Shown here piece after piece: positions 13,318-27,751 of a DNA stretch of 44,292 nucleotides. The notes beneath the pieces are model-generated. The model had not been told where the DNA came from. It worked only from the letters and a program-made list of their open reading frames with translations, and made no database searches. The stretch is from positions 1-44,292 of the forward strand of contig CAIZGG010000448.1 of the NCBI GenBank assembly GCA_903932425.1, written 5' to 3'. Both the position numbers and the translations under genes were made by a program. Numbering within the stretch: position 1 is the first letter of the stretch; each line of letters begins with the position of its first letter. Source of the stretch: an uncultured beta proteobacterium (lineage in GTDB: Bacteria; Pseudomonadota; Gammaproteobacteria; Burkholderiales; Burkholderiaceae_B).

Positions 13318-14487
13318 ATGCAAAGCAAATTATTTTCACCCCTTCAAATTCGTGATGTTGTCATTCGTAATCGCATTGCCTTGTCGCCGATGCTGACCTA
13401 CTCTGCAGTAAATGGTCATGCCAGCGATTGGCATTTTGCGCATTACGCCAAGTACGCTGTCGGTGGCGTCGGTTTGGTGATGGTTGAATCCACCAAGGTT
13501 GACCCGCGTGGATGTACAACGCCATCAGATTTAGGCTTGTGGAAAGATGAGTTTATTCCGCAGATGCAGCGCATCACCTCGTTTGTAAAATCGTACGGTG
13601 CAACGGTTGGTATTCAGTTAGGCCATTCTGGAATCAAGGCGCGTAATTCGGTGCCTTGGAAAGGGCGCGCGCCATTAGATGCAAGTCAAAAGGGCGTGGA
13701 TCACGGTGAGGAGTGGGAACTGATTGGGCCAAGTGCGATCAGCCTGAACTCAAAAGCGGCGTTGCCCAGGGCAATGACGATCAAAGATATTCAAGAGCAA
13801 ATTGAATTTTGGGGCAAAGCCGCTGAGCGTGCCGATCGTGCTGGCTACGATGTATTAGAGTTGCATGGCGCGCATGGTTATTTGACCCATCAGTTTTTGT
13901 CGGCCACCACCAATCTACGCACGGATGAATACGGCGGTACGCCTGAAAAGCGGATGCGTTTCGCGATTGAGGTCGTTGAACGAGTCCGCCAATCATGGCC
14001 ACATAACAAGCCGTTGTTTTACAGAACCTCTGCAGTCGACGAGGTGGGTTGGACGATTGAAGACAGCATCAATTTGGCCAAGGTTCTTAAAGCCAAGGGT
14101 GTAGACGTGTTTGATTGCAGCAGCGGTGGTATGTCAGAAAAATCAGCTGTGCTTTCGCCGGTGAAACCATCGTATGGTTATCAGGTCCCTTACTCAGAAA
14201 AAATCCGCCACGGTGCTGACATCATGACGATGGCTGTTGGGTTGATTATTCACGCAGACCAGGCAGAGAGCATTTTACAAAAGGGTCAGGCCGATATCGT
14301 GGCGATTGGGCGCGAGATGTTGCATAACCCGAACTGGGCGTTGGATGCCGCTAGCAAACTTGGTCAAGATAATCCGTTTGGGACCGTGCCTGATAGCTAT
14401 GCGTATTGGCTTGAGAAGCGAGCCGGTATTGGTTTTGGCGAGCGCAGTTCGACTTGGCTCAAGGGCATTGATGCACCTCATGTCTAA
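13318..14487 (+). CDS. Old Yellow Enzyme-family NADH:flavin oxidoreductase (YqjM-like)
   Basis: FMN-containing TIM-barrel ene-reductase, 389 aa. Visible features are the N-terminal LFSPLQIRDVVIRNRIALSPM, a flavin-binding QLGHSGIKA, the substrate-site histidine pair in ELHGAHGYLTHQFLS (about 181-195), the conserved TNLRTDEYGG, and the phosphate-binding IGREMLHNPNW near the C-terminus. The closest type is YqjM/xenobiotic-reductase. However, the residue after LSPM is Leu, where YqjM has its redox-tuning Cys, so the flavin potential may differ. The likely role is reduction of an alpha,beta-unsaturated carbonyl or CoA-ester. It sits 18 bases after the Bug gene and 75 bases before a CoA-transferase; a hairpin lies in that gap. 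Confidence 0.9.
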   Translation: MQSKLFSPLQIRDVVIRNRIALSPMLTYSAVNGHASDWHFAHYAKYAVGGVGLVMVESTKVDPRGCTTPSDLGLWKDEFIPQMQRITSFVKSYGATVGIQLGHSGIKARNSVPWKGRAPLDASQKGVDHGEEWELIGPSAISLNSKAALPRAMTIKDIQEQIEFWGKAAERADRAGYDVLELHGAHGYLTHQFLSATTNLRTDEYGGTPEKRMRFAIEVVERVRQSWPHNKPLFYRTSAVDEVGWTIEDSINLAKVLKAKGVDVFDCSSGGMSEKSAVLSPVKPSYGYQVPYSEKIRHGADIMTMAVGLIIHADQAESILQKGQADIVAIGREMLHNPNWALDAASKLGQDNPFGTVPDSYAYWLEKRAGIGFGERSSTWLKGIDAPHV

Positions 14488-14527: not shown

Positions 14528-14562
14528 AGTAGGTCAGTAATCGATAAATGAAAGAGATGTAC

Positions 14563-15798
14563 ATGACAGCACCACTAGCCGGTATTAAAGTTGTTGAAAT
14601 CAGTGTCGCCATGGCAGGCCCGTTTTGCGGCATGCTGTTGGGCGACTATGGCGCAGATGTCGTCAAAATAGAGCGTACGGTCACCGGTGACGATAGCCGT
14701 GTGTGGGCGCCTTACTTTCATGATTCGATGAGTTACTACTACGCCGCGGCAAACCGCAACAAGCGCGGTATGGCGATTGATCTGAAATCGCCCGAAGGTG
14801 TGGCGATTGCGCGCAAGCTGATCGAAGAGGCCGATGTCTTTGTCCATAACTATCGTATGGGCGCCCTCGATCGCTTGGGGCTCGATTACGAAAGTTTATC
14901 GAAGGTGAACCCTCGCCTCGTTTATTGTGCAATCAGTGGCTTTGGTGCCACTGGGCCTTTAAGCCGAGAGCCAGCCAATGACCTGTTCATGCAGGCTTAT
15001 GCAGGATCAATGAGCATCACAGGTGATCCTGAGGGTAGTCCTGCCAAGATGGGCATGTCGGTGGCTGACGTAGGTGCAGGGATGTTCGGTACGATTGGGA
15101 TCATGATGGCGCTCGAGACTCGTCATCGTACAGGCCGTGGGCAGCGTGTCGATACGTCTTTGCTCGAGGGCCATATGTCGATGCTGGCCCAGTTTTTTAC
15201 GCGTTATTTTTCAAGTGGCGAAGTGCCTGGCCCAAGTGGTAGTGGTTCGCTGGGGAGTCCGACCTATCGCGCCTATCAGGCGAGCGATCAGTGGCTTGTG
15301 ATCTCGTCGTTCAATCAACGGATGTGGAAAGGTTTATGCACAGTACTTGAACGACCTGAATGGGTGGATGATCCAAGATTTCTTAATCCAGAGATGCGTT
15401 CGTTGAATCGCCCTCTGTTGATCCAGTTGATCGGTGACATCATCATCACTCAACCTCTCGCGCATTGGCAAGCGCGTCTGATTGAACAAGATGTGCCCTG
15501 TTCACCAGTGAATACGATCGATAAGGTTGTTGCGCAACCTCAAGTGCTAGCGCGCGACATGGTGCACGAGATGGATCTTGACGGTCTAGGCAAAATTGCG
15601 ATGGCGGGCTTGCCAATTAAATTCAGTGACTCGCCAGGTGAAATTCGCTTGCCTCCACCGCGGCTGGGCCAGCATACGGCTGAAGTGATGGCAGGAGCTG
15701 GTTACAGCGCTGAGCAAATTCAAGCACTGGCAGCCCAAGGTACGATCGGGTTAGACCCAGGTTGGGTAAAGGTGCCTAAAGCGAGCTCGTCGGCGTAA
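14563..15798 (+). CDS. CaiB/BaiF (family III) CoA-transferase
   Basis: Transfers CoA between acyl groups without a free acid intermediate; family III. The 411-residue protein shows the family N-terminus GIKVVEISVAMAGPFCGMLLGDYGADV(V)KIE in two parts, the NRNKRG CoA-contact motif (about 64-69), and the catalytic-aspartate segment GMSVADVGAG with Asp169. The start is taken as ATG 14563, preceded by AAAGAGA; a methionine five codons earlier lacks a ribosome-binding site. It is the last gene of the plus-strand unit and converges on the minus-strand operon ending at 15884. The family uses succinyl-CoA, acetyl-CoA or an intermediate as donor. Activation of the acid imported by this unit is the simplest reading. 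Confidence 0.92.
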   Translation: MTAPLAGIKVVEISVAMAGPFCGMLLGDYGADVVKIERTVTGDDSRVWAPYFHDSMSYYYAAANRNKRGMAIDLKSPEGVAIARKLIEEADVFVHNYRMGALDRLGLDYESLSKVNPRLVYCAISGFGATGPLSREPANDLFMQAYAGSMSITGDPEGSPAKMGMSVADVGAGMFGTIGIMMALETRHRTGRGQRVDTSLLEGHMSMLAQFFTRYFSSGEVPGPSGSGSLGSPTYRAYQASDQWLVISSFNQRMWKGLCTVLERPEWVDDPRFLNPEMRSLNRPLLIQLIGDIIITQPLAHWQARLIEQDVPCSPVNTIDKVVAQPQVLARDMVHEMDLDGLGKIAMAGLPIKFSDSPGEIRLPPPRLGQHTAEVMAGAGYSAEQIQALAAQGTIGLDPGWVKVPKASSSA

Positions 15799-15806
15799 GC
15801 CCATCT

Positions 15807-15859: not shown

Positions 15860-15883
15860 CAGCTTTCGTACCGAGAGCACACG

Positions 15884-16960
15884 TCAGTCAGCAATAAACC
15901 CAGGGCGTGGCTTTAAACGATTGATAAACACGGGCTGTAAGCCCACGCTCAGTAAGTGTGCCGATGTTGTGGGCAAGCGCTTTGGTTGCCAAGCAGGGTC
16001 TTCGATGTCTTTGGGCCAATTGGGATTCAAAATCGCAGAACGCCCCAAGGCAATCACATCAGCACCAAGGTCTAAGACCTTCTGGGCATCTTTACGATCC
16101 CAGATGTGCCCTGCCGTAAAAAGAGGTAAATCAGCAGGAATCACACGTTTGAAAATATCTAAGGGGTGCTCGGCAGGTCGTTTGATCGACTGCTTAAAGG
16201 CATCCCACAAAGAGATATGTAAAAAATCAATGCCATCGTCGGTGAGCCAGCGCGCAAGTTGCAGGCTTTCATCCAAATCGATGCCGCGTGCGTTGCCTCC
16301 GTCTTCGGGCGAAATCCTGACGCCTACAACAAAGTCGTTAGGGACACGCGCACGCACAGCTTGCATAGTCTTTCGCAAGAGTCGTGCGCGGTTTTCATAT
16401 GAACCACCCCATTGATCGGTGCGGCGATTTTCAGTTGCACTTAAAAACTGTGTAAACAGGTAGCCATGTGCGCCGTGAATTTCAATGCCGTCCATCTTAG
16501 CTGCGTGCGCCCGCTCAGCCGCGCGCGCAAAATCTTCGATGACTTGTTCAAGTTCTTGTTCAGTAGCAGCGCGAGCGCCAGTCGGACCGCCATCACTTGC
16601 GCTGATGGGTTGTCCACCACAGACCGTTTGATCTGCGCGCAAGCCACCATGAAAAATTTGCATCAGAGCCAGACTTTTTCGTTGATGCATTGCATCTGCG
16701 AGCCGAGTCAAACCTGGCAGCTGTGCATCGTCAGAAATGCCTAGCGCACCGGGCCAGCCTTGACCGAGCTTGTTGACATGCGCTGCACACGAAGTGATGG
16801 TGCCAAAGCCACCCTCGGCCCTAAGATTTAACCAATGCAACTCTTCGTCGCTAAGGGTGCCGTCTGCATGACTTTGTGAATTGGTGAGCGCCGCAAGCAC
16901 TAAACGGTTTGGTGCCCAAACACCATTACGAAAACGAAAGGGTTCGAGAAGATTTTTCAT
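15884..16960 (-). CDS. Old Yellow Enzyme-family NADH:flavin oxidoreductase
   Basis: Second OYE-type flavoprotein, 358 aa, last gene of the 12-gene minus-strand run. Family features: PFRFRNGVWAPNRLVLAALT at the N-terminus, MQIFHGGLRA at the flavin/substrate edge, IEIHGAHGYLFTQFLSATEN with the active-site histidines, RRTDQWGGS, and the phosphate-binding IALGRSAILNPNWP. It differs clearly from the copy at 13318 (HGG in place of the HSG loop, and different N-terminal residues). It probably reduces a C=C bond in an enoyl or unsaturated cyclic intermediate. Its start overlaps the TctA stop by 4 bases (ATGA), so transporter and reductase are translationally coupled, which ties the imported compound to a reductive step. 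Confidence 0.9.
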   Translation of the reverse strand: MKNLLEPFRFRNGVWAPNRLVLAALTNSQSHADGTLSDEELHWLNLRAEGGFGTITSCAAHVNKLGQGWPGALGISDDAQLPGLTRLADAMHQRKSLALMQIFHGGLRADQTVCGGQPISASDGGPTGARAATEQELEQVIEDFARAAERAHAAKMDGIEIHGAHGYLFTQFLSATENRRTDQWGGSYENRARLLRKTMQAVRARVPNDFVVGVRISPEDGGNARGIDLDESLQLARWLTDDGIDFLHISLWDAFKQSIKRPAEHPLDIFKRVIPADLPLFTAGHIWDRKDAQKVLDLGADVIALGRSAILNPNWPKDIEDPAWQPKRLPTTSAHLLSVGLQPVFINRLKPRPGFIAD

Positions 16961-18483
16961 TCAGAGCTCTCAGGGATGATTTTTTTGATTTTGATGCCGA
17001 ACAGGCGCGCTGCAAGTTGGCGTAGTGGCTCAAGTAGCATGACTGCGATCACTAAGATCCAAATGACAATCGCGATTGGGCTTGTATAGAAAACCGAGAC
17101 TTCACCTAGACTCATAAACAGTCCCTCGCGCATGTGTTTTTCGATCAAAGGGCCAAGCACAAGACCAACCACCATGGGCGCTAACTGAAATTCAAGCTTA
17201 CGCAAGATGTAACCAATCAACGCTACGACGAGCAACATCCCTACGTCGAGCATACTGTTGCGTACGCTATAGCAGCCGATCGACGCCATCATTAAAATGA
17301 TGGGTAAGAAAATATGATTCGGCACGCGCAGCAAACTTACCCAAACGCTGACCAGTGGCACATTTAAAATGACGAGCATGACATTGCCGACAAGCATCGA
17401 GGCAATGACCCCCCAAAATACTTGAGGATGTGCGGTCATCATCATGGGTCCTGGCTGCACGCCCTGCACCATCATGGCGGCGAGCATCAGGGCAGTCACC
17501 GGACCAAACGGGATGCCGAGTGCCAGTAACGGCACCATCGATGAAGTGGCTGCAGCATTGTTTGCAGTCTCAGGCCCCGCCACGCCTTCAATTGCACCCT
17601 CACCAAGCTCGTGTTTATATTTCGAGACGCCTTTTTCAAGCCGGTAGGCCGCAAAGCTAGCCAGCGTTGCAGAGGGGCCAGGTAGCAGGCCAAAGATAAA
17701 CCCTAAAATTGTCCCTCGTCCAAAGGGTGCAACAGACCGACTCCATTCTTTGCGTGAAGGAAACATATCGCGCAGCTTGACCGGCAATGGCTTGACTTGC
17801 GACTGAAGAGATTCGACGACACTCATGATTTCGGCGATGCCATACAGCCCGACCACAAGCGCTACGAGTTCAACGCCAAGTGTTAAGTCGGCTAAGCCAA
17901 ACGTAAAGCGATCCTGGCCGGTCACCGCCTCTTGGCCGACCGTGCTGAGCATTAGGCCAATCGCCATTGGAAAGATTCCTGCGGCTAATGATCCCCCTGA
18001 AATCCTTGAAAACAATAGCAATCCACCAGCAGTCAAGGCAAAAAACTCTGCGGGTCCGAAGAGCAAACCCACTTCGGCCAGGGCTGGGGCAAAGAGCATC
18101 ACACCTACGACAGAGATCACTCCGCCAATAAAGGAACCAGCGGCCACGATTGTTAAGACCGCACCGGCGCGCCCCTTCTTTGTGAGTTTGTAGCCATCAA
18201 TGCAAGTAATCACAGAGGCCGATTCGCCCGGCATATTGACAAGAATTGCCGTGGTCGAGCCACCGTACATCGCACCATAAAACATACCTGCCATCATGAT
18301 CAGGCCGCTGGTCGGGTCGAGCGAATAGCTCAGCGGTAAGATCATCGCGATGCCCGCTGTCGGTCCTAGACCCGGTAGGACACCGATCAAGGTGCCGGCC
18401 AGCGCACCCACCAACGCAGCCAGCAAGTTGTTGAAGGTAAAGGCAACGCTTAGGCCGTAGAGAATTCCGTCAAGTGCATCCAT
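16957..18483 (-). CDS. tctA: Tripartite tricarboxylate transporter large permease TctA
   Basis: Large membrane subunit of a TTT carrier, 508 aa, roughly 12 hydrophobic segments. The family signatures are clear: [22 protein letters not shown] near residues 31-52 in two parts, MYGGSTTAILVNMPGE (about 72-87), and the repeated-half counterpart FIFGLLPGPSATLASFAAY. With TctB and TctC it forms a sodium- or proton-driven carboxylate importer. Gene order on this strand is tctC-tctB-tctA with gaps of 13 and 22 bases, and the OYE gene overlaps its end. This is one of two complete TTT systems in the window. Confidence 0.95.
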   Translation of the reverse strand: MDALDGILYGLSVAFTFNNLLAALVGALAGTLIGVLPGLGPTAGIAMILPLSYSLDPTSGLIMMAGMFYGAMYGGSTTAILVNMPGESASVITCIDGYKLTKKGRAGAVLTIVAAGSFIGGVISVVGVMLFAPALAEVGLLFGPAEFFALTAGGLLLFSRISGGSLAAGIFPMAIGLMLSTVGQEAVTGQDRFTFGLADLTLGVELVALVVGLYGIAEIMSVVESLQSQVKPLPVKLRDMFPSRKEWSRSVAPFGRGTILGFIFGLLPGPSATLASFAAYRLEKGVSKYKHELGEGAIEGVAGPETANNAAATSSMVPLLALGIPFGPVTALMLAAMMVQGVQPGPMMMTAHPQVFWGVIASMLVGNVMLVILNVPLVSVWVSLLRVPNHIFLPIILMMASIGCYSVRNSMLDVGMLLVVALIGYILRKLEFQLAPMVVGLVLGPLIEKHMREGLFMSLGEVSVFYTSPIAIVIWILVIAVMLLEPLRQLAARLFGIKIKKIIPESSE

Positions 18484-18505
18484 CGAGATCGAGACCTATT
18501 ATTTT

Positions 18506-18979
18506 TTAAAATGAAAGTGCGAAGGAAGGCATCGGCACTTTTAGTAAGTAGATAAAACAAAGATAGATCACACCGGTCATCATTGCGGCATAGATGGCGC
18601 AGCGAGTCCACGATAAGGAAGACAGAAGGCGCATCAAGAGCAGCGCAAAAGCCCAGCTGCTAAGTGAATAACCCAACCAAGGGATTGTGGCAAAGTAGAG
18701 CGCAAGCAGAGCAATCAGTTTGAATAGTCGTGCGCGGTCTTGACCCGCTGGCATGTCGATGCTCTCGGCGCGCGAGGTCTTCCAGCCTTCCCAAATCGTT
18801 GCAATACTGCCAAAACACATCATTGCTCCCACGAGCACTGGAAACAATCCGGCACCTGGAGCATCGAGTTCACCCATTGGAAGTTGTCTCGCCATTGCCA
18901 GATAGCCTGCCGACAGCAAAAGCCCAAACGCCCCAGTTGACAGGTATGCCGTACGTTTTGAAATGGAATGACCAGTCAT
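18506..18979 (-). CDS. tctB: Tripartite tricarboxylate transporter small permease TctB
   Basis: Small four-helix membrane subunit of the TTT carrier, 157 aa. Hydrophobic segments are visible at about 9-29, 44-64, 82-110 and 120-150. The typical TctB region GAGLFPVLVGAMMCFGSIATIWEG and a short C-terminal LKVPMPSFAL are present. The open frame extends back into the preceding tctC, but the family start and the position of the first helix put the real start at ATG 18979, 13 bases after the tctC stop. Sequence is poorly conserved in this family; position between TctC and TctA decides the call. Confidence 0.88.
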   Translation of the reverse strand: MTGHSISKRTAYLSTGAFGLLLSAGYLAMARQLPMGELDAPGAGLFPVLVGAMMCFGSIATIWEGWKTSRAESIDMPAGQDRARLFKLIALLALYFATIPWLGYSLSSWAFALLLMRLLSSLSWTRCAIYAAMMTGVIYLCFIYLLKVPMPSFALSF

Positions 18980-18992
18980 AGGTTGTAGATCT

Positions 18993-19988
18993 TTAGGGTT
19001 TTTGATCGAGCAATTTAAGCAGCTCGGTGAAGGTTTTGGTGTCGCGCACGATTTCTGCCGCGAGCGCTTCCGGACTTTTCGGCTCGAGCGCGTAGCCTTC
19101 TTTGGCAAACGTGGCGTATTCAGGGCTATTGATCACTTGTGCTGAGGCGCTGACCAGCTTGTCGAATACTTCTTTGGGCAAACCTTTCGGTGCCATGACG
19201 TAAAACTGGGCTGACAGCGTCGTCAGGTAGCCTTGGTCGATTGTTGAGGTGGCCTCAGGCACAGGGTCATAGACCCCCTTTTTAAATACAGCCAGCACCC
19301 GGACTTTGCCCGCCTGCACCTGACCCGGAATACCAACGGCGCCGGTAAAAAGCGTTGCCTCAACCCGATTGCCCAATAGTGCTAACAATGCTTCGCCACT
19401 GCCGCCTGTAAACGGAATCGTTCGTAGTTTGAGACCACTATTTTTATTGAACTCTTGAGCGACTAGGTCAGGTACAGTCCGTAAGCCCGAGACAGAGGCG
19501 CGAACCTTGTTGGGATTTTTTTTGACATGGGCGACAAACTCTTCAAAGGTTTGCCAGGGCGCGTCTGCTCGTACTACGAGAATGACCGGCATTTCACCTA
19601 ACTTGGCAATCGGTTGATAGGCCTCAGGCGTTTTGAAGGTCAGGCCCTGATTGACCAAGGGTTGATAGGCCAAAATGCTGTTTGTGCCTAAGCCAATTGT
19701 GTAGCCGTCGGGCTTAGCGCGTGCAATCATTCCAAAGCCGATTGTGCCCGAGCCGCCGGGCTTGTTCTCGACATTGACCTCGACCCCTAAAACTTTTTCA
19801 AGCTGAGCAGCATACTGTCGAGAAATTGGATCAGTTGAGCCAGCGGGCCCATAGGGTACAACAAAGGTAATCGGACGACTTGGGTAAGCTTGAGCCCACA
19901 AGGTGGCGGGCAGATAGCACAGTATGGCCGCAAATATCAGACGCAAGAATCCCGCATATGAGAAGATAGCGCAAGAACAGCGTTGCAT
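18993..19988 (-). CDS. tctC: TTT system substrate-binding protein TctC (Bug family)
   Basis: Periplasmic receptor of the adjacent TctAB carrier, 331 aa. The signal peptide is visible (LRLIFAAILCYLPATLWAQ). Then comes the family opening YPSRPITFVVPYGPAGSTDPISR with the ligand Asp in STD, followed by ENKPGGSGTIGFGM and FTGGSGEALLALLGN. AAGGGATTGCC precedes ATG 19988. It stands 10 bases after the CoA-transferase stop, so uptake and CoA activation are in one transcript. The specific acid is not readable from sequence. Confidence 0.92.
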   Translation of the reverse strand: MQRCSCAIFSYAGFLRLIFAAILCYLPATLWAQAYPSRPITFVVPYGPAGSTDPISRQYAAQLEKVLGVEVNVENKPGGSGTIGFGMIARAKPDGYTIGLGTNSILAYQPLVNQGLTFKTPEAYQPIAKLGEMPVILVVRADAPWQTFEEFVAHVKKNPNKVRASVSGLRTVPDLVAQEFNKNSGLKLRTIPFTGGSGEALLALLGNRVEATLFTGAVGIPGQVQAGKVRVLAVFKKGVYDPVPEATSTIDQGYLTTLSAQFYVMAPKGLPKEVFDKLVSASAQVINSPEYATFAKEGYALEPKSPEALAAEIVRDTKTFTELLKLLDQKP

Positions 19989-19998
19989 GGCAATCCCT

Positions 19999-21354
19999 TT
20001 AACGGTCTACACCCATTATGTTGCGATAGTCTTTGTCTACAGCTGAAAGCGTACCCAAGCGCAGCATCATCTCTGTGTCCATCGTGCCCGAAAGGCCTGG
20101 GTTGGTCGGCAGATCACACACAACTTTATTGGCCTTGATCTCAGCAATCTGCTCTGCCGTCATCCCCAATATGTCGCGTAAGATCGCATCGTTGTCTTCA
20201 CCAAAGCGCGGCCCCGATTTCTTAATGTGCGCATCACGAAAGCGCAGCCGGTAAGGGCGACCGATAATCGGACGTGGGCCAATCGGCGCTGGGTGTTCGA
20301 CGCGCTCATAAAAACCGCGGTGTTGTAGGTGTTCGTTAATGAAAAGGTCTTTACTATTTAAGACTGGGCCGCTAGCGATATCTTGCGCTTGCAAGATAGA
20401 AGTCAACTCAGTGACCTCACGAGAAAGCGTCCAGGCCGATACCAGCGCGTTGATCTCTGAGCGGTGAGTGCGCCTTGCAGCAGCGGTCGCGTAACGTATA
20501 TCTTGTGCGAGTGCAGGCTGACCCATCAGCGCAGCGAGCTTAGCCCAACGTTCATCCGAGTCAACCGTGATCGCAATCCATTGGTCGTTGCCGCTCGCCC
20601 GATATAAATTGCTGGGCACATGTTCCAGGTCTTCATTGCCAATGCGAGGGCGGTCTGTGCCGTCGAACTGCTTTTGAATGAGGGCCTCTGGGATGAGCGA
20701 GAGCCCTAGCTGATACATACCGCAATCGATCCATTGACCTTGCCCAGTCTTGCGCATGTGTACGATCGCAGCCCATAGCGCGTTCATGCCGGCCCAGCAG
20801 GCGATAAAGTCTGGATAAGACTGACCGACTTTCCAGGGCTTATCGCCTGCATAGCCAGTGTAGAAGGTCACCCCCATTGTCGCTTCAAGCGTGGTGCCCT
20901 GACTAGGAAATGCAGACCATGGCCCACTCGAACCATAGCCAGTATTCGATAACATAATGAGTGAGGGTTTAATTTTTTTGAGCTCGTCGTAATTTAAGCC
21001 CCACTTGCGCATCACGCGCGGTGTGTAGTTCTCAAGCACGATGTCACTTTTTCGAACCAGATCGCGAAAGATCTCTTGGCCCTTCTCCTGGCCCAAATCA
21101 AGCGCTAACGAGCGCTTGCCTCGATTGACGACATAGAAAATACCCGAACGATTCCAGGGGTCTTGCGCTGGATCATTATCGAGATAGGGTCCAAAGGCGC
21201 GACCGCGTGTCTGATCAAGTTTGTGTGGTGCTTCAATCTTGATGATTTCGGCGCCTAGATCACTCAAGAGCCCGGCCATATATGGCACGGCAAAGACGTA
21301 TGACAAATCCAGAACGCGAACGCCCTCTAAAGGAAGTTTCTTTTTCTTTTCCAT
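19999..21354 (-). CDS. CaiB/BaiF CoA-transferase, catalytic-Asp-bearing partner of a tandem pair
   Basis: Family III CoA-transferase, 451 aa, longer than its neighbour owing to a C-terminal extension (after DILGMTAEQIAEIKANKV). It has GVRVLDLSYVFAVPYMAG, NRGKRSLALDL and the active-site segment VGQSYPDF with Asp182 at the position that forms the acyl anhydride in this family. It begins 2 bases after the stop of a second CaiB-type gene whose corresponding residue is not Asp. By analogy with BbsEF-type benzylsuccinate CoA-transferase, where two family III subunits form a heteromer, these two probably act together, with this one supplying the catalysis. The heteromer is an inference from gene pairing. 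Confidence 0.9.
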   Translation of the reverse strand: MEKKKKLPLEGVRVLDLSYVFAVPYMAGLLSDLGAEIIKIEAPHKLDQTRGRAFGPYLDNDPAQDPWNRSGIFYVVNRGKRSLALDLGQEKGQEIFRDLVRKSDIVLENYTPRVMRKWGLNYDELKKIKPSLIMLSNTGYGSSGPWSAFPSQGTTLEATMGVTFYTGYAGDKPWKVGQSYPDFIACWAGMNALWAAIVHMRKTGQGQWIDCGMYQLGLSLIPEALIQKQFDGTDRPRIGNEDLEHVPSNLYRASGNDQWIAITVDSDERWAKLAALMGQPALAQDIRYATAAARRTHRSEINALVSAWTLSREVTELTSILQAQDIASGPVLNSKDLFINEHLQHRGFYERVEHPAPIGPRPIIGRPYRLRFRDAHIKKSGPRFGEDNDAILRDILGMTAEQIAEIKANKVVCDLPTNPGLSGTMDTEMMLRLGTLSAVDKDYRNIMGVDR

Positions 21355-21356
21355 GA

Positions 21357-22562
21357 TTAATGTCCTGCCGCTACGGCAACATCAAGGCTTGAAAGTTCGG
21401 CCGCGCTCAGGCCAAGCTGTGTGACTAGAATTTCGTGTCGATGTTCATCGAGCATCGGAGAGCGTCGTCGCACCTTTGTCGGGGTGACAGATAGTTTAGT
21501 AAGCTCTGCCGGAAACTGTAAGTGTGTGTTGGTCGCTGGATGTTCAACTTCAGCGAACACTTGACGTTCGTTTAGATGCTCACAGTTCAGCAAGTCGTCC
21601 GCGCTTTGCACCATGCCAATCAATAGCCTTTTTGAGGCACCGGCCAAGAACACTTCTTTCGCATCACGGTCTTGCACACACTCTTCAAGTAACGCGCGCA
21701 CTTCAGGCACGCGCTTCTCGCGCTGGGGTGGGCTGGCGAATCTGGGCTCACGAAATTCTGGGCGACCAAATAAGTCGGCGAGCGTTTCAAACGGAGCACC
21801 ACCGCCTGTTTGAAACGCCAAAAAGCCCTTGCGTGCAGCAATAGGTTCGCCGGCGAAGGGGTCTTGCACAACAGCTCGGCGACCTTGCACTGCACCTAGG
21901 AAACCGTAATACGACTGGTTCAATACCAGTTCTGAGGCAAGGCATTCATGAATCGATACGTCAACGTGCTCGCCAAATTGATCGGCCTGTGCAGCGCTGT
22001 ACGCCATGGTCGAAGCATAGGCTGCGGTCAACCCCGCGCAGTAGAAGGATTGCGACAGGCCGTGCTTGAGCGGCTCGCGGTCGACTTGTCCGCTAATGGC
22101 CATGATCCCACTCATTGCTTGTAAGGTGAGATCGCTGGCGCGGTAATGCGCATAAGGACCCGTTTGTCCGAAATTCGTGACTGATGTCACAACCAGTGTA
22201 GGGTTCCATTCGAGCAACTGGTCAACGCTATAGCCCCAGCTTTCCAGCCGTCCGGGCTTGAAGCTTTCGATCACTATATCGCTTTGTTCGATCAGCCGGC
22301 GCATAATCGGTCGACTCGACGCTAAGCGCAGGTCAAGTGCAACACTGCGTTTGTTCCAGTTTAGATATTGAAACAGCAGGCTTTGTTCACCTGCGGCGGC
22401 ATCGGTTTTCAATGGCGCAAGATAGCGCGCAAAGTCACCCTTGCCAGGCTGTTCAACTTTAATAACGTCTGCACCATAGTCGCCTAGCAACCGAGCCGCA
22501 AAGGGCCCGGCGATACCATGACTCAGGTCCAGAACGCGGACGCCGTGTAACGCGTGTTGCAT
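21357..22562 (-). CDS. CaiB/BaiF CoA-transferase-like subunit lacking the catalytic Asp
   Basis: Family III CoA-transferase fold, 401 aa. The N-terminal GVRVLDLSHGIAGPFAARLL, the GDYGADVIKVE strand and WNKRSVALDL are all normal. The active-site segment reads HGLSQSFYCAG (about 167-177). Aligned on the flanking G and AG with the other two CaiB genes in this window, Phe173 falls where the catalytic Asp should be. The rest of the protein is full length and shows no frameshift, so this looks like a maintained non-catalytic or regulatory subunit rather than a decaying gene. It is sandwiched between the MaoC-type genes (10-base gap) and the Asp-bearing partner (2-base gap). Confidence 0.88.
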   Translation of the reverse strand: MQHALHGVRVLDLSHGIAGPFAARLLGDYGADVIKVEQPGKGDFARYLAPLKTDAAAGEQSLLFQYLNWNKRSVALDLRLASSRPIMRRLIEQSDIVIESFKPGRLESWGYSVDQLLEWNPTLVVTSVTNFGQTGPYAHYRASDLTLQAMSGIMAISGQVDREPLKHGLSQSFYCAGLTAAYASTMAYSAAQADQFGEHVDVSIHECLASELVLNQSYYGFLGAVQGRRAVVQDPFAGEPIAARKGFLAFQTGGGAPFETLADLFGRPEFREPRFASPPQREKRVPEVRALLEECVQDRDAKEVFLAGASKRLLIGMVQSADDLLNCEHLNERQVFAEVEHPATNTHLQFPAELTKLSVTPTKVRRRSPMLDEHRHEILVTQLGLSAAELSSLDVAVAAGH

Positions 22563-22572
22563 ACGAACCTAC

Positions 22573-23055
22573 TTAGGCTGCTGGTGGAACAAAGGGATAG
22601 GGCACGGGTTGGCCATTTTTGTAAGGTAACGCAACCGTCGCCGTGCCTGGCGTTGACTCTTTGCCCGCATCGTTGATGATGCCTAACTCGATATCAATCA
22701 AGCCATAGCCCGAACCCTCGCGCTTGCCAGTCACACGACCCCAAACGCGCACAGTCTCTTCAACGATGTTCATCGCTCGAAACTGAAAGCTAGCTTTCCA
22801 CGCCCAGCCATTTGGGCCAGCCCAGTCGGCAAGCATTTGCATGACGAACTGCTGCTTGAGTGAACCGTTGATTAGCAGCCCTGGCAGTTTGTCATGTTCC
22901 ATTGCAAAGGGCTTGTCGTAATGAATCTTGTGCCAGTTTTCCATGGCCGCCGACCAACGCATTAAATGTGCCGTCGTCAGAGGGCCTTTTTCAAGACCGG
23001 GGATGTCGGAGCCAATCGCGACATCTTCAAAATTAGGAGTCGTACCGAGTGCCAT
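22573..23055 (-). CDS. MaoC-type acyl-CoA dehydratase/hydratase subunit (C-terminal hot-dog type)
   Basis: Single hot-dog-domain protein, 160 aa. The hydratase-2 region reads RWSAAMENWHKIHYDKPFA (about 29-47), followed by LPGLLINGSLKQQFVMQML. The IHYD histidine of the R-hydratase site is present. The Asp of the usual GDxNPIH motif is replaced by an N-x-H arrangement, as in HTD2/mesaconyl-C4-CoA-hydratase-like relatives. Together with the adjacent protein at 23057-23587 it would make a double hot-dog. It begins 1 base after that gene's stop, with its GGAG ribosome-binding site inside the end of the upstream gene. Likely role: hydration of an enoyl-CoA made by the acyl-CoA dehydrogenases of this run. 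Confidence 0.86.
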   Translation of the reverse strand: MALGTTPNFEDVAIGSDIPGLEKGPLTTAHLMRWSAAMENWHKIHYDKPFAMEHDKLPGLLINGSLKQQFVMQMLADWAGPNGWAWKASFQFRAMNIVEETVRVWGRVTGKREGSGYGLIDIELGIINDAGKESTPGTATVALPYKNGQPVPYPFVPPAA

Positions 23056-23056
23056 A

Positions 23057-23587
23057 TTATTTTCTCCGGATTTGTGTGCGACGGGTGCGGATCAGCAGTT
23101 CACCCTCACCATTTCGAAACTCTGTTTCTGTGACCACTAAGACAATTGGTCCCTTGCTTGTTTCTTTTTCACTGATGTCTGCGTAGCTTGAAGTTTGGCT
23201 AACGGTTTCGCCATGACGGGCATAGCGGAAAAATTCGATTTCTGAGCCGCCGTTTAGTAGCGCATAGCCCTTGAGAGGCTCAAGCGCGGGTAAGCCGCCC
23301 GAACTCGTGGCAGCTACGATGCCATCAAAGTCTGCGTTGCGTGCATTGGCTTGAATTGGATCGGGCACACCGAAGGCGCGTCGTGCGAGGTGTGTCGGAA
23401 ACAGCGGTGGCGCAACAGGTCCGCCATAGCGCGCATTGTTGGCGCAGGGCTTATCAAAGATCGGATCTTCATACATGATCGCTTGCGCGTAACGACGCAC
23501 GGCACCACGTTCAACGGAATCACACGCGATCTCAGTCGTGGATTTCATTCCGATATATTTTTTTAGTGAGTCGGAAAGGGCGGACAT
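23057..23587 (-). CDS. MaoC-type dehydratase N-terminal-domain protein (partner hot-dog subunit)
   Basis: Hot-dog protein of the MaoC_dehydrat_N/FAS1-like group, 176 aa. Features seen are VERGAVRRYAQAIMYEDPIF (about 25-44), then the substrate-tunnel motif ARYGGPVAPPLFPTHLA, and VSQTSSYADISEKETSKGP in the C-terminal half. The catalytic Asp-His motif of R-hydratases is absent, as expected for the non-catalytic half of a two-domain or heteromeric enzyme. Its partner follows 1 base later. Known precedents for such split hydratases are the mycobacterial steroid enzymes ChsH1-ChsH2 and HadAB/HadBC. The gene is 47 bases downstream of the Bug receptor gene. Confidence 0.86.
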   Translation of the reverse strand: MSALSDSLKKYIGMKSTTEIACDSVERGAVRRYAQAIMYEDPIFDKPCANNARYGGPVAPPLFPTHLARRAFGVPDPIQANARNADFDGIVAATSSGGLPALEPLKGYALLNGGSEIEFFRYARHGETVSQTSSYADISEKETSKGPIVLVVTETEFRNGEGELLIRTRRTQIRRK

Positions 23588-23634
23588 TTTTAATCTCCCA
23601 GGGTGGTAAAAGAATGACGTTTGCTGACTTTGGA

Positions 23635-24615
23635 TTAATTCACTTTAACACCGGCGTCTTGCACAATTTTTTGCCAGCGTAATACTTCGCTTCGTACAAA
23701 GGCTTCAAACTCTGGAGTGGGCAGAGGGCGCTCAAGTACGTCTGACCCACTCTTGATCAACCGATCGCGTACGGCGGGGTTGGTCATGACTTTGATGATG
23801 GCGGCGTTCAAACGCTCTATCACTGGCTTAGGCGTGGCCGAAGGCGCACACACACCGTTAAAGCCACTGATGGCAAACCCTTTTACCGTTTCGCCGATCG
23901 TAGGCATCTCAGGCAGTTGGGTCGCGCGTTCAGCCATCACCACGCCAAGCGCTTTGACATGCCCTGATTTTACAAATGGTAAGACTGGTTCAAGCACTGC
24001 AAATGACATCGTGGCACGACCCGCGACGACATCCGCAATGGATGGCGAACTACCTTTGTAGGGGATGTGAAGCATCTCGGTGCCAGTGAGCTTCATGAAA
24101 AGTTCGCCGGCTAAATGACCGGGGCTACCTGTTCCGTATGAGGCAAACGTCAGCTTGCCAGGTTGGGCCTTAGCCAAAGCAATCAGTTCGCTCACACTAT
24201 TCGCAGCAACAGCGGGGTTAACGACCAGTAATAAGCTCGCGCCTAAATGCATTGTGACGTGCGTGAACGCCTTGAGGGTATCGAAGTTCAGTTTGTACAG
24301 ACTAGGGTTGATCGCATGCGCTGTGGTGCAAATCAGTAGCGTATAGCCATCAGCGGGCGAATTCGCGACAAACTCGGTGCCGATAATTGTATTGGCTCCT
24401 CCTTTGTTTTCAACCAATACGGTCTGCCCAAACTCTTCCGTTAATCCTTGAGCCATCACCCGAGCTACGGTATCTGCACCGCCACCCGGAACGTAGGGCA
24501 CTACTAATTTAATCGGACGATTTGGGAAGTTTTGCGCCCAGCCTGTAGAGATCCCTGCGCTGAAAAACGTTGCGCATACGATCAGAAGTGCAACGAGGCG
24601 GGCGCAGGTTCGCAT
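23635..24615 (-). CDS. Bug/TctC family substrate-binding protein
   Basis: Periplasmic receptor, 326 aa, with signal peptide (VALLIVCATFFSAGISTGWA) and the family motifs FPNRPIKLVVPYVPGGGADTVAR, ENKGGANTIIG and HIPYKGSSPSIADVVAG. The ligand Asp in GGAD is present. Its start follows the small YHS-like gene by 3 bases, with the TAAGGC ribosome-binding site lying in the end of that gene. The operon therefore holds two receptors (this one and TctC at 18993) but one TctAB pair, suggesting that two ligands feed one carrier or that this receptor has another role. Confidence 0.9.
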   Translation of the reverse strand: MRTCARLVALLIVCATFFSAGISTGWAQNFPNRPIKLVVPYVPGGGADTVARVMAQGLTEEFGQTVLVENKGGANTIIGTEFVANSPADGYTLLICTTAHAINPSLYKLNFDTLKAFTHVTMHLGASLLLVVNPAVAANSVSELIALAKAQPGKLTFASYGTGSPGHLAGELFMKLTGTEMLHIPYKGSSPSIADVVAGRATMSFAVLEPVLPFVKSGHVKALGVVMAERATQLPEMPTIGETVKGFAISGFNGVCAPSATPKPVIERLNAAIIKVMTNPAVRDRLIKSGSDVLERPLPTPEFEAFVRSEVLRWQKIVQDAGVKVN

Positions 24616-24618
24616 GCT

Positions 24619-24822
24619 TTAAGCCTTAGGCGTTAAGTAGCGTTGTGGGCTGACTGTAAATTTGCTGCGACAGTTCAGCGAGTCAAAGTAATACCAGTTG
24701 CCGTCATGAAATTGGCGAGTCCCTTTAGATGGGTCAATTTCCTTTGCGCCATGGGCGGTTTCACCCGTTTTAGATTCAGCCCCTTCAAGGTCAATCGCTT
24801 TACCGCAGACTAGACATTTCAT
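24619..24822 (-). CDS. Small YHS/TRASH-like metal-binding protein (67 aa)
   Basis: A 67-residue cytosolic protein. It begins with MKCLVCGKAI (Cys3, Cys6), has a mid-region RQFHDGNWYYFDSLNCRSKF (His39, Cys51) and ends with VSPQRYL. The spacing and the aromatic FDS..C..F..(D/S)P..Y pattern match YHS/TRASH domains, small treble-clef-like modules that bind a metal or act as chaperone-like accessory domains. I cannot name a specific family. It is translated between an acyl-CoA dehydrogenase gene and a Bug receptor gene (gaps of 44 and 3 bases), so it is a real, coupled gene despite its size. It may be an accessory factor for one of the multi-subunit enzymes. Confidence 0.75.
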   Translation of the reverse strand: MKCLVCGKAIDLEGAESKTGETAHGAKEIDPSKGTRQFHDGNWYYFDSLNCRSKFTVSPQRYLTPKA

Positions 24823-24866
24823 AGCTCTTATCTCGAAAATAATATTGATGTTTGTAAACCAAGCTC

Positions 24867-26042
24867 TTAGGCTTGCACCGGAACCGGCTGCCCAAGCACG
24901 ACATGACCGGGCATATCTAGCAGCGCATGAGCAATGCGCTCACGGTGCTCGTAGCTAGTGCCTAAGCGCATCGACCAAGCAGTCACCCGCCGCAGCCACA
25001 AGTGCAAATCGAACTCCATCATGAAACCAATACCGCCATGAATGGATTGCGAGTTGCGGCACACTGCAGGGCATTTGTCGTTGCAAAACGCTTTGGCTTG
25101 CGATACTTCAACTTGGGCAGGCATGCCGTTATCCATTTTCCAAAGTGCCTCGTACGCAAGTAGCTCTCCGCCATCGATCCAGATAATCATGTCGGCGCAT
25201 GTATGTTGAATCGATTGAAAGGCACCGATTGGCTGACCAAAGGCTTCGCGAAATTTGGCATGATCGATCGCCATTTCTGCGTCCATGCGGGTGGCACCCA
25301 GCATTTGTGTACACAACAGCACGGTTGCGAGGTCAAGCAGCTCTTGCATAATCGGCCAACCTTCGTTGAGCTGACCGATTAGGTCTGATTTTGCGACACG
25401 AACTTTGTCAAAAATGACTTCGCATTGCTGATCTTTAGCCAGCGTTCGCAGCGGTACATGCGAGATTCCAGCAGCAACGGAGTCGATTAAGAATAATGAA
25501 AGACCGGCGTTAGCTGTTGACGCAGGACTCGTACGGCAAGCAACTAAAATTTTATTCGAGGCTGCAAAATAATCGACAAAAAGCTTCTTGCCTGTAATGA
25601 CAAAGTGTTCACCGTCTGCCGTTGCTGTGGTCTTGACAGTTTCGGGTAAGAAGCGTGGATCCTCTTCAGAGAACGCCCAAGTCAAAATCGTTTTTCCTTG
25701 CGCAACACTAGGCAAGATGGCGTCACGTTGTGCTTGTGTGCCCGCTTTCGCAATGGTCAAAGAGGCGACCGAGGTGCTGTGCAGCGGTATCGGCGCCATC
25801 GCGCGACCAACTTCTTGCATCACCAAGCCAAGATAGGTTAGTGGGAGCGCTTGGCCACCGTACTCTTCAGGCAAACACATGCCCGTCCAGCCCATCTCGG
25901 TGCATTTTGCCCACAACGCGGGTGGATAGCCGACTGGATCCATCTCCATCTGACGCACCAAAGTTGTTGAGCATTCTCCCTCAAGAAACTCTCGGGCGCT
26001 CGAGGCGACTAGCTGCTCTTCTTCGTTTAAAAGTACATCCAT
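24867..26042 (-). CDS. Acyl-CoA dehydrogenase family protein, small-subunit type
   Basis: Flavin-dependent acyl-CoA dehydrogenase fold, 391 aa. The N-terminal helical domain (LLNEEEQLVASSAREFLEG ... WTGMCLPEEYGGQALPL) and the C-terminal SIHGGIGFMMEFDLHLWLRR are typical. The central flavin motif is degenerate (TWAFSEEDPRF in place of FTEPxAGSD). There is no YEG(T/S)-type segment after the LRR region for the usual catalytic Glu (it reads MRLGTSYEHRERIA). This matches the beta-like subunits of heterotetrameric dehydrogenases such as mycobacterial ChsE1-ChsE2. The start ATG 26042 is preceded by AGGAACAGAG. It follows the other dehydrogenase by 60 bases. Confidence 0.9.
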   Translation of the reverse strand: MDVLLNEEEQLVASSAREFLEGECSTTLVRQMEMDPVGYPPALWAKCTEMGWTGMCLPEEYGGQALPLTYLGLVMQEVGRAMAPIPLHSTSVASLTIAKAGTQAQRDAILPSVAQGKTILTWAFSEEDPRFLPETVKTTATADGEHFVITGKKLFVDYFAASNKILVACRTSPASTANAGLSLFLIDSVAAGISHVPLRTLAKDQQCEVIFDKVRVAKSDLIGQLNEGWPIMQELLDLATVLLCTQMLGATRMDAEMAIDHAKFREAFGQPIGAFQSIQHTCADMIIWIDGGELLAYEALWKMDNGMPAQVEVSQAKAFCNDKCPAVCRNSQSIHGGIGFMMEFDLHLWLRRVTAWSMRLGTSYEHRERIAHALLDMPGHVVLGQPVPVQA

Positions 26043-26102
26043 CTCTGTTCCTATGTGTTCTTCAATGACGGTAGGGCTGAACCCGACCGTACGTACGTTT
26101 TC

Positions 26103-27362
26103 TTATTTGGCAGCGGCTTTGGCCCGACGCATCGACGGCAACTCAAGGCCACGCTTCGCAACCTGATCGCGCATGATTTGTACGCTGCCGTGGTTGATAC
26201 CCGACTGAAAGGCCCCCATCGTGTTGTGCGCGAATACGCCTTTTTCAACCGCATGCGGCGAGCCATTGAGTAGCGTGCCATACGCGCCTAACATTTGAGT
26301 AATGGCTTCAGTGGTTCGTACACCATGCTCTGGCGACCACACCTTTTCGGCCGAGCCCTCATAGGTGAAGTTACCGCCGCGCTCAACAATTGACATGCTA
26401 CGCATTGTCATGAGGCGACAGACTTGCGCCTCAGTCCACATCTCGGCGATTTTGTCGCGAATTGCTGGGTTGTTTTTTGGCGCATAGCCACCGAAGTCGT
26501 TTGATTTGACCCAGTTCACGATATCTTCGTCGCGGCGTACCGAGCGCAGGTAGCGAGCAGCGCCAACGCGGTCAAGGTTTAGCCCCATTGAGCCGACACG
26601 CCAGCCTTGATTTTCGCGACCAAGCAAACAAGACTCATGAATTCGAACATTTTCGAAAAACACTTCGTTTGTACGCGCATCACCGTAAGTGGTCCCGCGC
26701 GGCGCGCGTGGATTATTTTGAATCGTCCAAAGGGGGCGCACAGTCAAACCCGGCGTATCCATCGGGAATAGAAAAATTGAGATGCCGTCATGGCGCCCGG
26801 CATCAGGGTCGGTACGTGCCATCAAGTACATGTGTGTCGCGTGATGGGCCGAGGTCGTGTACATCTTTTGGCCGTTAATCACGAAGTGGTCGCCGTCGCG
26901 AATCGCGCGACAGCGCAGTGCGGCCAAATCTGCACCGGCATGCGGTTCGGTAAAGCCTAGTGCGAACGAATATTCCATCTTGATCAGCTTGGGCAGGTAG
27001 TGCTGCTTTTGCTGTTCGGTTCCTACGGCCATGATGGCGGGCGCACCGCTGCCAACCAAGCTAATGGGCAAGCCCGCACGTTGAAACTCTTCTTCGATAA
27101 TATTTTGACTGACTCGATCGCCGTCTGCGCCGCCATACTCTTTGGGGTAGCTATACCCTAGCCAGCCGCGCTCATCGATTTTTTGATAAAGCGCAGTTAC
27201 TAAGGGGCCGCGTTTGCCAGAAAGGCGTTCGCCTTTACCGGCTTCATGCGCCTCTTCGGTCGCATCAAGTTCTGCATACACCTCTGGCGTCATGTGAGTG
27301 CGAATAAAGTCGAGCACATCGTTACGCAACTGCGTCTGCTCTGGGGTATGACCGAAATCCAT
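26103..27362 (-). CDS. Acyl-CoA dehydrogenase family protein, large-subunit type
   Basis: First gene of the 12-gene run, 419 aa. It has the standard three-domain layout: LGYSYPKEYGGADGDRVSQ, flavin-binding FALGFTEPHAGADLAALR (about 133-150), VINGQKMYTTSAHHATHMYL, and a C-terminal segment ending GSVQIMRDQVAKRGLELP. The last segment aligns with the GGTxEIQRNIIAxRxLGLP of actinobacterial-type FadE proteins, so it lacks a Glu at the MCAD-type YEG position. In heterotetrameric homologues the active site is shared between unlike subunits, which fits the adjacent second gene. The start at 27362 is preceded by GGAGAACAGAAAG; an earlier in-frame Met is rejected. Confidence 0.92.
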   Translation of the reverse strand: MDFGHTPEQTQLRNDVLDFIRTHMTPEVYAELDATEEAHEAGKGERLSGKRGPLVTALYQKIDERGWLGYSYPKEYGGADGDRVSQNIIEEEFQRAGLPISLVGSGAPAIMAVGTEQQKQHYLPKLIKMEYSFALGFTEPHAGADLAALRCRAIRDGDHFVINGQKMYTTSAHHATHMYLMARTDPDAGRHDGISIFLFPMDTPGLTVRPLWTIQNNPRAPRGTTYGDARTNEVFFENVRIHESCLLGRENQGWRVGSMGLNLDRVGAARYLRSVRRDEDIVNWVKSNDFGGYAPKNNPAIRDKIAEMWTEAQVCRLMTMRSMSIVERGGNFTYEGSAEKVWSPEHGVRTTEAITQMLGAYGTLLNGSPHAVEKGVFAHNTMGAFQSGINHGSVQIMRDQVAKRGLELPSMRRAKAAAK

Positions 27363-27751
27363 CTTTCTGTTCTCCAAATACATCACGCACTGCGGTGCGC
27401 GCGCTTAAGCTGATTGCACTCGAGTCTTGGCGTAGGGCCAGTGAGACTAGAGGCGGGGCGAATATATTGCGGTGGCCGAGTCAGGCTGTATTTGCTGCAT
27501 GCGCACATTTTTGCGTGCATGAACTCTGTGGGACTCTAGCAGTCATCTGGCGTGAACCAAATTTGTGATCCCTTACGAATGCAAAGCAACTTTGTCTCAA
27601 ACCACTTATTTTTTTAAAACTATTTGTGTTGGATTTATCCTAGCATAAAGGTCTAGCATCAGCACCTCATTTTTACCCGCAGTAAGAGTGGAAAAAGAGG
27701 GTATCAAGAGGCGCCATCGCGAGTAGACTATGGCCGAAAGGGGGGTAAGGC
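27363..27751. promoter_or_regulatory. Divergent control region between the 12-gene run and the Bug-FAH unit
   Basis: A 389-base non-coding stretch with starts facing outward on both sides. It contains an imperfect inverted repeat CATGCGC (27498-27504)/GTGCATG (27515-27521). It also contains a direct repeat CTAGCAT at 27640-27646 and 27653-27659 (period 13), and an A/T-rich run near 27607-27625. On the minus strand a TATATT element lies at 27466-27461 but without a good -35 box. I see no gene in it. It is the obvious place for operators of a regulator encoded elsewhere. Confidence 0.5.

Follow-up and report, generated by a model that had tools for sequence, protein, structure and literature searches.

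Introduction

In Cupriavidus and Pseudomonas, methylsuccinate is degraded by a coenzyme A (CoA) transferase, a hydratase, a lyase, an acyl-CoA dehydrogenase (ACAD) and an isomerase of the MmgE/PrpD family, and the accessible text of the study describing this gives a 1,4-dicarboxylate backbone as common to the known MmgE/PrpD substrates (PMC12290011). On the steroid side chain, two-protein enzymes follow a dehydrogenase-hydratase-aldolase logic, according to the accessible text of a second study (PMC12502768). Here we describe a gene cluster on a 44,292-nucleotide stretch of DNA from an uncultured freshwater beta proteobacterium (contig CAIZGG010000448.1 of assembly GCA_903932425.1; "the window"), in which one tight run of twelve genes encodes an ACAD, a hydratase and a CoA-transferase, each as a pair of neighbouring paralogues. 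That these pairs form three heteromeric enzymes was proposed in a first-pass annotation made from the letters of the DNA alone; as a prediction from sequences and structure models it is now well supported by the loss of catalytic residues, co-inheritance, natural fusions and structure matches. The cluster probably takes up and breaks down a branched organic acid, and this breakdown probably ends with a C-C lyase encoded nearby instead of the usual thiolase.

The methylsuccinate/itaconate cluster (Ict, Ich, Ccl, Mcd, Msi) is matched at family level in the window, where all five steps have a counterpart, and the accessible description of the C. necator cluster includes a TctC-type binding protein nearby, as in the window (PMC12290011). 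The window differs in that two unequal subunits are predicted to make up its CoA-transferase, its ACAD and its hydratase alike, and in that its lyase resembles 3-hydroxy-3-methylglutaryl-CoA lyase (HMGL) and not citramalyl-CoA lyase. We take Ict to be of the CaiB family and Ccl to be of the CitE type. The igr operon of M. tuberculosis and ORF40-44 of Comamonas testosteroni (ChsE1E2, ChsH1H2, Ltp2) share with the window a two-protein ACAD and a two-protein hydratase (accessible text of PMC12502768); the hydratase has one inert partner, as stated in the accessible text of PMC11321319, and retro-aldol cleavage replaces the thiolase, as we propose for the window. Unlike these systems, the window holds neither DUF35 nor Ltp2 among its Pfam-searched products, its lyase is of the HMGL type, and it adds a CaiB pair, an MmgE/PrpD protein and Tct importers.

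All three heteromers have precedents, and operons that join two of them to an aldolase are already known. The first-pass annotation knew of no operon combining all three classes with a TctCBA importer and an OYE (Old Yellow Enzyme). Among the open-licence PMC papers listed in our searches, none describes the whole module by its title or the opening of its abstract, and none joins these heteromers to a CaiB pair plus a lyase of the HMGL type; igr and ORF40-44, as far as the accessible text goes, combine two of the classes with an aldolase (PMC12502768).

A run of twelve genes with three proposed subunit pairs

The window is one of 508 contigs of a 4.07-Mb assembly with an estimated completeness of 84%. 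Its genus is Zwartia (Alcaligenaceae), and "non-Zwartia" refers below to other genera. Open reading frames (ORFs) and Pfam matches place twelve genes on the minus strand at 15884-27386, given here in the order of transcription:

26103..27386, minus strand: ACADl, large ACAD subunit with a candidate base, the Asp of LNLDRV (Pfam; start at GTG 27386 or ATG 27362)
24867..26042, minus strand: ACADs, small ACAD subunit without a recognised catalytic base (Pfam)
24619..24822, minus strand: YHS-like ORF of 67 amino acids, the twelfth gene, 3' of ACADs (Pfam YHS at 25.8 bits, under the cut-off of 30.3)
23635..24615, minus strand: TctC1, TctC-type solute-binding protein (Pfam)
23057..23587, minus strand: MaoC1, proposed non-catalytic (substrate-side) hydratase subunit (Pfam FAS1_DH_region)
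22573..23055, minus strand: MaoC2, proposed catalytic hydratase subunit (ENWH[KR]IHYD motif, fold, itaconyl-CoA hydratase match)
21357..22562, minus strand: CaiB1, class III CoA-transferase subunit without the catalytic Asp (Pfam)
19999..21354, minus strand: CaiB2, class III CoA-transferase subunit that keeps the catalytic Asp (PDB match to 9fn0 chain B)
18993..19988, minus strand: TctC2, TctC-type solute-binding protein (Pfam)
18506..18979, minus strand: TctB (Pfam; ATG start; a TTG at 19108 is possible and would overlap TctC2)
16957..18483, minus strand: TctA (Pfam)
15884..16960, minus strand: Old Yellow Enzyme (OYE)-family flavin oxidoreductase, inconstant among relatives (Pfam)

Intergenic distances range from -4 to 60 nucleotides (nt), with gaps of 1-60 nt and a single overlap of 4 nt; the 13-nt gap before TctB depends on choosing ATG 18979. 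ORFs, Pfam and BLASTP thereby confirm the tight run with three diverged adjacent pairs that had been described initially. A break of the run by a 251-base gap at 24616-24866 was considered and rejected, because this gap holds the YHS-like ORF. BLASTP aligns ACADl and ACADs with 28% identity over 228 amino acids and CaiB1 and CaiB2 with 28% over about 400, and gave no significant match between MaoC1 and MaoC2; by sequence comparison, the sister genes within each pair are old, diverged paralogues. Consensus scans of 15700-27900, which are weak tests, found 7 promoter-like matches against 9.0 in shuffled sequence, no sign of an internal promoter, and 15 terminator-like matches against an expected 14.0. 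All NCBIfam matches of the dehydrogenases and CaiB proteins in the run lie far under the curated cut-offs.

Relatives were sampled by a MaoC2 scan of a genome collection, which gave 215 confirmed relatives; the best 80 of the 215 were mapped together with the window, using profiles of the window genes under score thresholds. This kind of cluster is found mainly in Beta- and Alphaproteobacteria. Identical C-termini were collapsed before residues were counted in the ACAD, CaiB, MaoC2 and lyase rows. Since these loci were all drawn by MaoC2, CaiB1 and ACADl were each also searched independently in 300 genomes of the order (E 1e-90).

The CoA-transferase pair

The Asp scored in the CaiB alignments, which we take to be the catalytic one, is missing from CaiB1 in all 25 rows (F 16, Y 7, Q 1, L 1). 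In CaiB2 only one of 26 rows is without it, and that row is the CaiB1 half of a fused protein; the other 25 have the Asp. Single CaiB proteins served as controls and invariably carry it, both in CaiB0, which is encoded next to the run (41/41 rows), and in other CaiBs (34/34). With two CaiB subunits, one of them without the catalytic Asp, the pair has the predicted make-up of a heteromeric class III CoA-transferase. Benzylsuccinate CoA-transferase (9fn0), presumably BbsEF, likewise has two CaiB-family proteins per enzyme; its chain B is the best PDB match of CaiB2, and in the printed alignment its chain A lacks the Asp at the catalytic place as CaiB1 does. Identity to 9fn0 is low, however, and the pair falls outside benzylsuccinate CoA-transferase proper, to which CaiB2 is closest and CaiB1 is not.

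In the window and the 80 loci, CaiB1 and CaiB2 are adjacent in 22 cases, fused in 3, cut by a contig end in 1 and alone in none. Fused forms also set the pair apart from 9fn0. Single reading frames cover both proteins in Bordetella petrii (L097, 12895-15447), Xenophilus azovorans (L113, 11279-13825) and Ramlibacter (L142, 2-2359). The CaiB1 search of the 300 genomes found matches in 3 genomes; besides the window itself, these include two more fusions, with frames of 888 and 898 amino acids (L155, L156), which brings the natural fusions to five. Class III CoA-transferases form interlocked dimers, and given this a fused CaiB heterodimer is structurally curious.

The hydratase pair

Pfam found no family for MaoC2 at E 0.001, and we call the protein MaoC-type because of its itaconyl-CoA hydratase, profile and fold matches. 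It matches the C-terminal half of itaconyl-CoA hydratase, whose NGHRIHYD stretch aligns with the ENWH[KR]IHYD motif of MaoC2; the last His and the Asp of this motif are kept in 85/85 rows. In MaoC1, no His reaches 90% conservation across 35 rows. The structures of the two proteins were predicted separately. The MaoC2 model (predicted local distance difference test, pLDDT, 89.5) matches MaoC-like 4ffu best and the short ChsH1-ChsH2 chain second, with (R)-hydratase and HadB also among its matches. For MaoC1, the five best matches are all to the longer ChsH1-ChsH2 chain, at a root-mean-square deviation of 5-7 Å, followed by PaIch and HadA; its sequence profile, too, matches that chain and HadA. 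The ChsH chains were told apart by length, the deposited chain names in 4w78 and 4wnb being in disagreement. The longer protein, ChsH2, is inert and binds the bulky part of the substrate, according to the accessible text of PMC11321319. Judged from motifs and separate models, MaoC1-MaoC2 would thus be a heteromeric MaoC enzyme with one hot-dog subunit carrying the catalytic motif and one without it. MaoC1 corresponds to HadA and to the N-terminal half of Ich, MaoC2 to HadB and to the C-terminal half; they differ from HadAB and PaIch as separate genes in a catabolic cluster with weak sequence similarity.

Linkage of this pair is close, with 73 adjacent cases in the window and the 80 loci, 2 in which MaoC2 lies at a contig end and 6 that are not adjacent; among the latter, MaoC1 stands elsewhere in the locus in 4 (L108 and L116 with an intervening ACAD) and was not found in 2. 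One relative of the pair (L114) occurs in a metagenome-assembled genome labelled Chloroflexota, outside Proteobacteria, where a binning error is possible.

The dehydrogenase pair

The top PDB matches of ACADl are Tcur3483 (6wy8, a two-protein ACAD entry) and 4x28_A, both of which we take to be steroid-type heteromeric ACADs. ACADl keeps the Asp of LNLDRV in 31/31 rows and has no Glu at the EGT place; at the position of this Asp, 6wy8_B and 4x28_A show a Glu (LNHER) in the printed alignments. In ACADs, the EGT-place Glu is missing from all 33 readable rows of 35, the other two being cut or frame-shifted there, and the Asp place holds no acidic residue. Tcur3481 (6wy8_A) is among the PDB matches of ACADs, the best of which is another ACAD, 6fah_C. 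Thus, ACADl and ACADs resemble the large and the small chain of Tcur3483-Tcur3481, respectively, and make up two adjacent, diverged ACAD genes with a candidate base in one only, as in a two-protein ACAD. Different from 6wy8 and 4x28 are the Asp as candidate base, the attached YHS gene and the occurrence of solo ACADl copies.

In the window and the 80 loci, the two genes are adjacent in 28 cases and present as single records at contig ends in 4; the exceptions are a pair 664 nt apart (L135) and a gene in pieces (L092). Counting the window, the independent ACADl search gave 16 matches, spread over 7 genomes. ACADs lies next to ACADl in 8 of the 16, and 7 of these 8 also have the YHS gene, again with the window counted; in the MaoC2-anchored sample the YHS gene follows ACADs in 16/33. 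The YHS-like protein has a CxxC and a further Cys, which are conserved, and a conserved GTRQFHDG motif that also occurs in other families of the order. Its search against the PDB returned nothing credible (best E 0.14). From its residues and linkage, it is possibly a metal protein tied to this dehydrogenase clade.

The same genome holds a second, more distant ACADl-ACADs pair on contig C13 (L059, 6941-9327), with no YHS gene near (L171), and on contig C331 (L062) a frame of 781 amino acids with two ACAD C-terminal domain matches, which resembles a fused ACAD pair.

Conservation of the run

All 17 same-genus loci chosen by MaoC2 have the MaoC pair, while the ACAD pair is missing as a unit from 5 (L045, L046, L047, L049, L051) and the CaiB pair from 3 (L051, L052, L054); L042 is uninformative for the ACADs, as it starts inside the run. 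The cultured Zwartia hollandica has all three pairs at one locus (L083). Outside Zwartia, all three pairs occur together in L097 and L103, and also in L179 and L182, which have a more distant CaiB pair and HMGL. The initial description had stressed an operon combining the pairs with a TctCBA importer and an OYE. Both are present here, but they vary even within Zwartia and are not constant parts of the run, the frequent partners outside the genus being an HMGL-like and an MmgE/PrpD gene. The idea that the OYE is the key enzyme was dropped, the OYE being missing from many Zwartia loci.

A lyase and an MmgE/PrpD protein as a proposed alternative to a thiolase

The first-pass annotation noted that a thiolase is absent and suggested that the pathway might finish elsewhere. 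The absence is best explained by an HMGL-like gene beside an MmgE/PrpD gene, which lie outside the run originally delimited and offer retro-aldol cleavage as a concrete alternative:

34694..35671, plus strand: HMG-CoA-lyase-like lyase, proposed terminal C-C cleaving enzyme (NCBIfam NF004283)
35686..37050, plus strand: MmgE/PrpD family protein, proposed free-acid isomerase/epimerase (Pfam)

The two genes adjoin each other, and the lyase scores 281.7 bits on NF004283 (cut-off 246), within the HMG-CoA lyase family. In the 57 non-Zwartia loci, searched at a lyase threshold of 250 bits, the lyase stands directly after MaoC2 in 22 (start within 300 nt; 23-58 nt between matched ends) and elsewhere in the locus in 20, and in 1 there was no room for it. 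MmgE/PrpD occurs at at least 250 bits in 26 of the 57, and in L103 an HMGL-like and an MmgE/PrpD gene come next after MaoC2. Within Zwartia, the lyase is present in 9/24 loci, the reach of the others not having been compared, while three extended genomes (L147-L149) have both genes in 3/3 at 95-98% identity. Chance linkage of the lyase is unlikely, because the window's own 4.07-Mb assembly has only 4 PF00682 matches.

Following the residue roles given in the accessible text of PMC6941031, the Arg, two His and the Cys of the lyase are kept in every row with letters there, and the metal-binding Asp is replaced by Glu in 53/58 rows. In 48 rows (window, L067-L146), Glu is found in 23/23 lyases just after MaoC2, and Asp in 5/25 of those elsewhere. 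A motif script found no motif in the other 3 HMGL-like genes of the window's own genome, which therefore do not serve as a control. The HMGL-like genes beside the MaoC pair in L179 (9589-10527) and L182 (3390-4346) have MREGMQ and not GPREG, and the script found no HxHD in their matched part; by these motifs they are a more distant lyase type.

Proposed pathway

From the observed anatomy, residue losses and linkage, we infer the following substrate-to-product chemistry. TctABC-type carriers would import the acid, as their family suggests, and the MmgE/PrpD protein may, by analogy, interconvert isomers of the free acid. CaiB1-CaiB2, whose residues and fusions have been described, would transfer CoA to the acid by means of the catalytic Asp of CaiB2. 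ACADl-ACADs would then desaturate the acyl-CoA, with the LNLDRV Asp as the putative base. MaoC1-MaoC2, in which fold and motif point to MaoC2 as the catalytic partner, would hydrate the substituted carbon to a tertiary 3-hydroxyacyl-CoA. Finally, the HMGL-like enzyme could cleave this product into acetyl-CoA (or a substituted acetyl-CoA) and a keto acid, which is consistent with its linkage and its residues. Because a tertiary 3-hydroxyacyl-CoA would be split by retro-aldol cleavage through the lyase, no thiolase would be needed. Hydratases and dehydrogenases with an inert partner are best known from steroid breakdown, in which the inert half makes room for the bulky substrate; here, too, the inactivated sister subunit probably shapes a roomier active site.

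On balance we favour, though with some reserve, the reading of the run as the core of a thiolase-free catabolism of a branched carboxylic acid that is carried out by three catalytic/inert heteromers and ended by a lyase. The parallel with the methylsuccinate pathway and the logic of steroid side-chain degradation are the reasons for proposing a branched acid, perhaps a 2-substituted succinate, and this fits the bulky or branched acid suggested at the outset. The substrate class, for which a 2-substituted succinate larger than methylsuccinate is the likeliest candidate though at less than even odds, is less secure than the thiolase-free, lyase-terminated logic. We consider it rather unlikely that the cluster represents a widespread pathway for bulky 2-substituted succinates, with three subunit-pair steps, a Glu-for-Asp HMG-CoA-lyase clade and the YHS metal-binding protein as a third component of the dehydrogenase. 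If the inert halves in this cluster likewise make room for branched acids other than steroids, in Proteobacteria of fresh water and soil, the question why three enzymes in succession have each divided into a catalytic and an inert half could be asked in a second context. The cluster also suggests a function that can be tested for the MaoC pair with its 215 confirmed relatives, for the HMGL-like clade and for the MmgE/PrpD proteins.

Contrary evidence and alternative explanations

Several observations weigh against the proposed reading. The best PDB match of CaiB1 is another CaiB/BaiF protein, 4ed9, with 9fn0_A only fourth, and one 40%-identical CaiB1-like copy stands without CaiB2 (G094; L058/L157, the same place). 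The MaoC1 model is of modest quality (pLDDT 75.5), and the protein matches PDB sequences only weakly (profile E 0.002-0.03). An ordinary EGT-type ACAD of the window's own genome (L003) also has an Asp at the place aligned with that of LNLDRV, which for this reason is only a candidate base and no proof of a moved one. Nor do the three pairs have to occur as a single unit, because Zwartia loci without the ACAD or CaiB pair keep the MaoC pair. At 250 bits, 14/57 non-Zwartia loci, some of them short, gave no HMGL and 31/57 no MmgE/PrpD, and in the window both genes lie 7 kb from the run on the opposite strand.

A further point concerns ACADl, of which solo copies exist. Among the 16 independent matches, 8 have no ACADs within about 1.5 kb, and these are relatives of 69-73% identity; ACADl may therefore work alone or pair in trans, and the idea that partners always stay together was given up for this gene. 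In wider stretches round solo copies, ACADs-like matches are confined to weak ones 6-8 kb off in L174 and to an ACADs about 10 kb away in L179, which belongs to another, paired copy; the L175 stretch is only 8.4 kb. Solo copies retain LNLDRVG and INHGS, and all 6 host genomes also carry a paired copy. The first-pass annotation had held that homologues commonly standing alone would speak against heteromers; this is hardly so for CaiB1/CaiB2 (0 alone apart from the 40% copy) or MaoC2 (6/81 without an adjacent MaoC1), and it is so for ACADl. In L174-L181, solo ACADl copies often adjoin TctC genes.

In one alternative, which we regard as rather improbable, the heteromers are real but the run is an ordinary PimC/PimD-like module for dicarboxylate shortening by beta-oxidation, with the dehydrogenase and thiolase of that cycle encoded elsewhere and HMGL and MmgE/PrpD serving another pathway. 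The best NCBIfam match of ACADl is pimC_large and the third of ACADs is pimD_small, both far under the cut-offs, and a PimCD-like ACAD pair of a Ralstonia has fitness phenotypes on C8-C12 dicarboxylates in the accessible text of PMC12543098; the distance and strand of the window HMGL also suit this explanation. Yet the placement of HMGL 23-58 nt after MaoC2 in 22/57 non-Zwartia loci, its return beside the MaoC pair in L179 and L182 and the scarcity of PF00682 matches in the genome speak against it.

Distinctly less probable is a steroid- or terpenoid-type degradation of side chain or ring, in which the cluster would process a polycyclic acid by a dehydrogenase-hydratase-aldolase module of the igr kind. 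Besides the top PDB matches of ACADl, the matches of MaoC1 and MaoC2 to the two ChsH1-ChsH2 chains speak for it, as do the nearby OYE and an FAD_binding_2 protein with 3-ketosteroid-dehydrogenase matches under the cut-off. However, DUF35, an Ltp2-type aldolase, a cytochrome P450 and a ring-cleavage dioxygenase are all missing from the Pfam-searched window products, which do not comprise every ORF; the motif of MaoC2 belongs to the itaconyl-CoA-hydratase type, and Tct importers, as generally understood, point to small polycarboxylates.

That the paralogues are mere tandem duplicates, acting as separate homomeric enzymes on different intermediates, would accord with the solo ACADl copies and with a 60-nt ACADl-ACADs gap that leaves room for separate expression, but is very improbable, because CaiB1 (25/25) and ACADs (33/33 readable) have lost the usual catalytic residue and could hardly act alone by known mechanisms, while a recent duplication would have left more than 28% identity and five CaiB1-CaiB2 fusions exist.

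The wider neighbourhood

The run belongs to a larger acid-degradation island, which includes the following genes:

14548..15798, plus strand: CaiB0, single class III CoA-transferase with the Asp, convergent neighbour of the run (Pfam)
13318..14487, plus strand: OYE0, OYE-family oxidoreductase (Pfam)
29883..31361, minus strand: FAD_binding_2 oxidoreductase (Pfam)

CaiB0 is present at at least 500 bits in 26/57 non-Zwartia loci, and relatives of it stand before MaoC1-MaoC2 in other genera (e.g. L110, L121, L124, L130), where OYE0 may accompany CaiB0 and the MaoC pair (e.g. L121, L124). Relatives of the FAD_binding_2 gene occur in L102 (Bordetella petrii, 827 bits) and L182 (748 bits). Within the 22 kb of 12319-34398, the island holds five binding proteins of the TctC type and two sets of TctA and TctB, together with two OYE genes, three CaiB genes, one fumarylacetoacetate (FAA) hydrolase gene and the single FAD_binding_2 gene.

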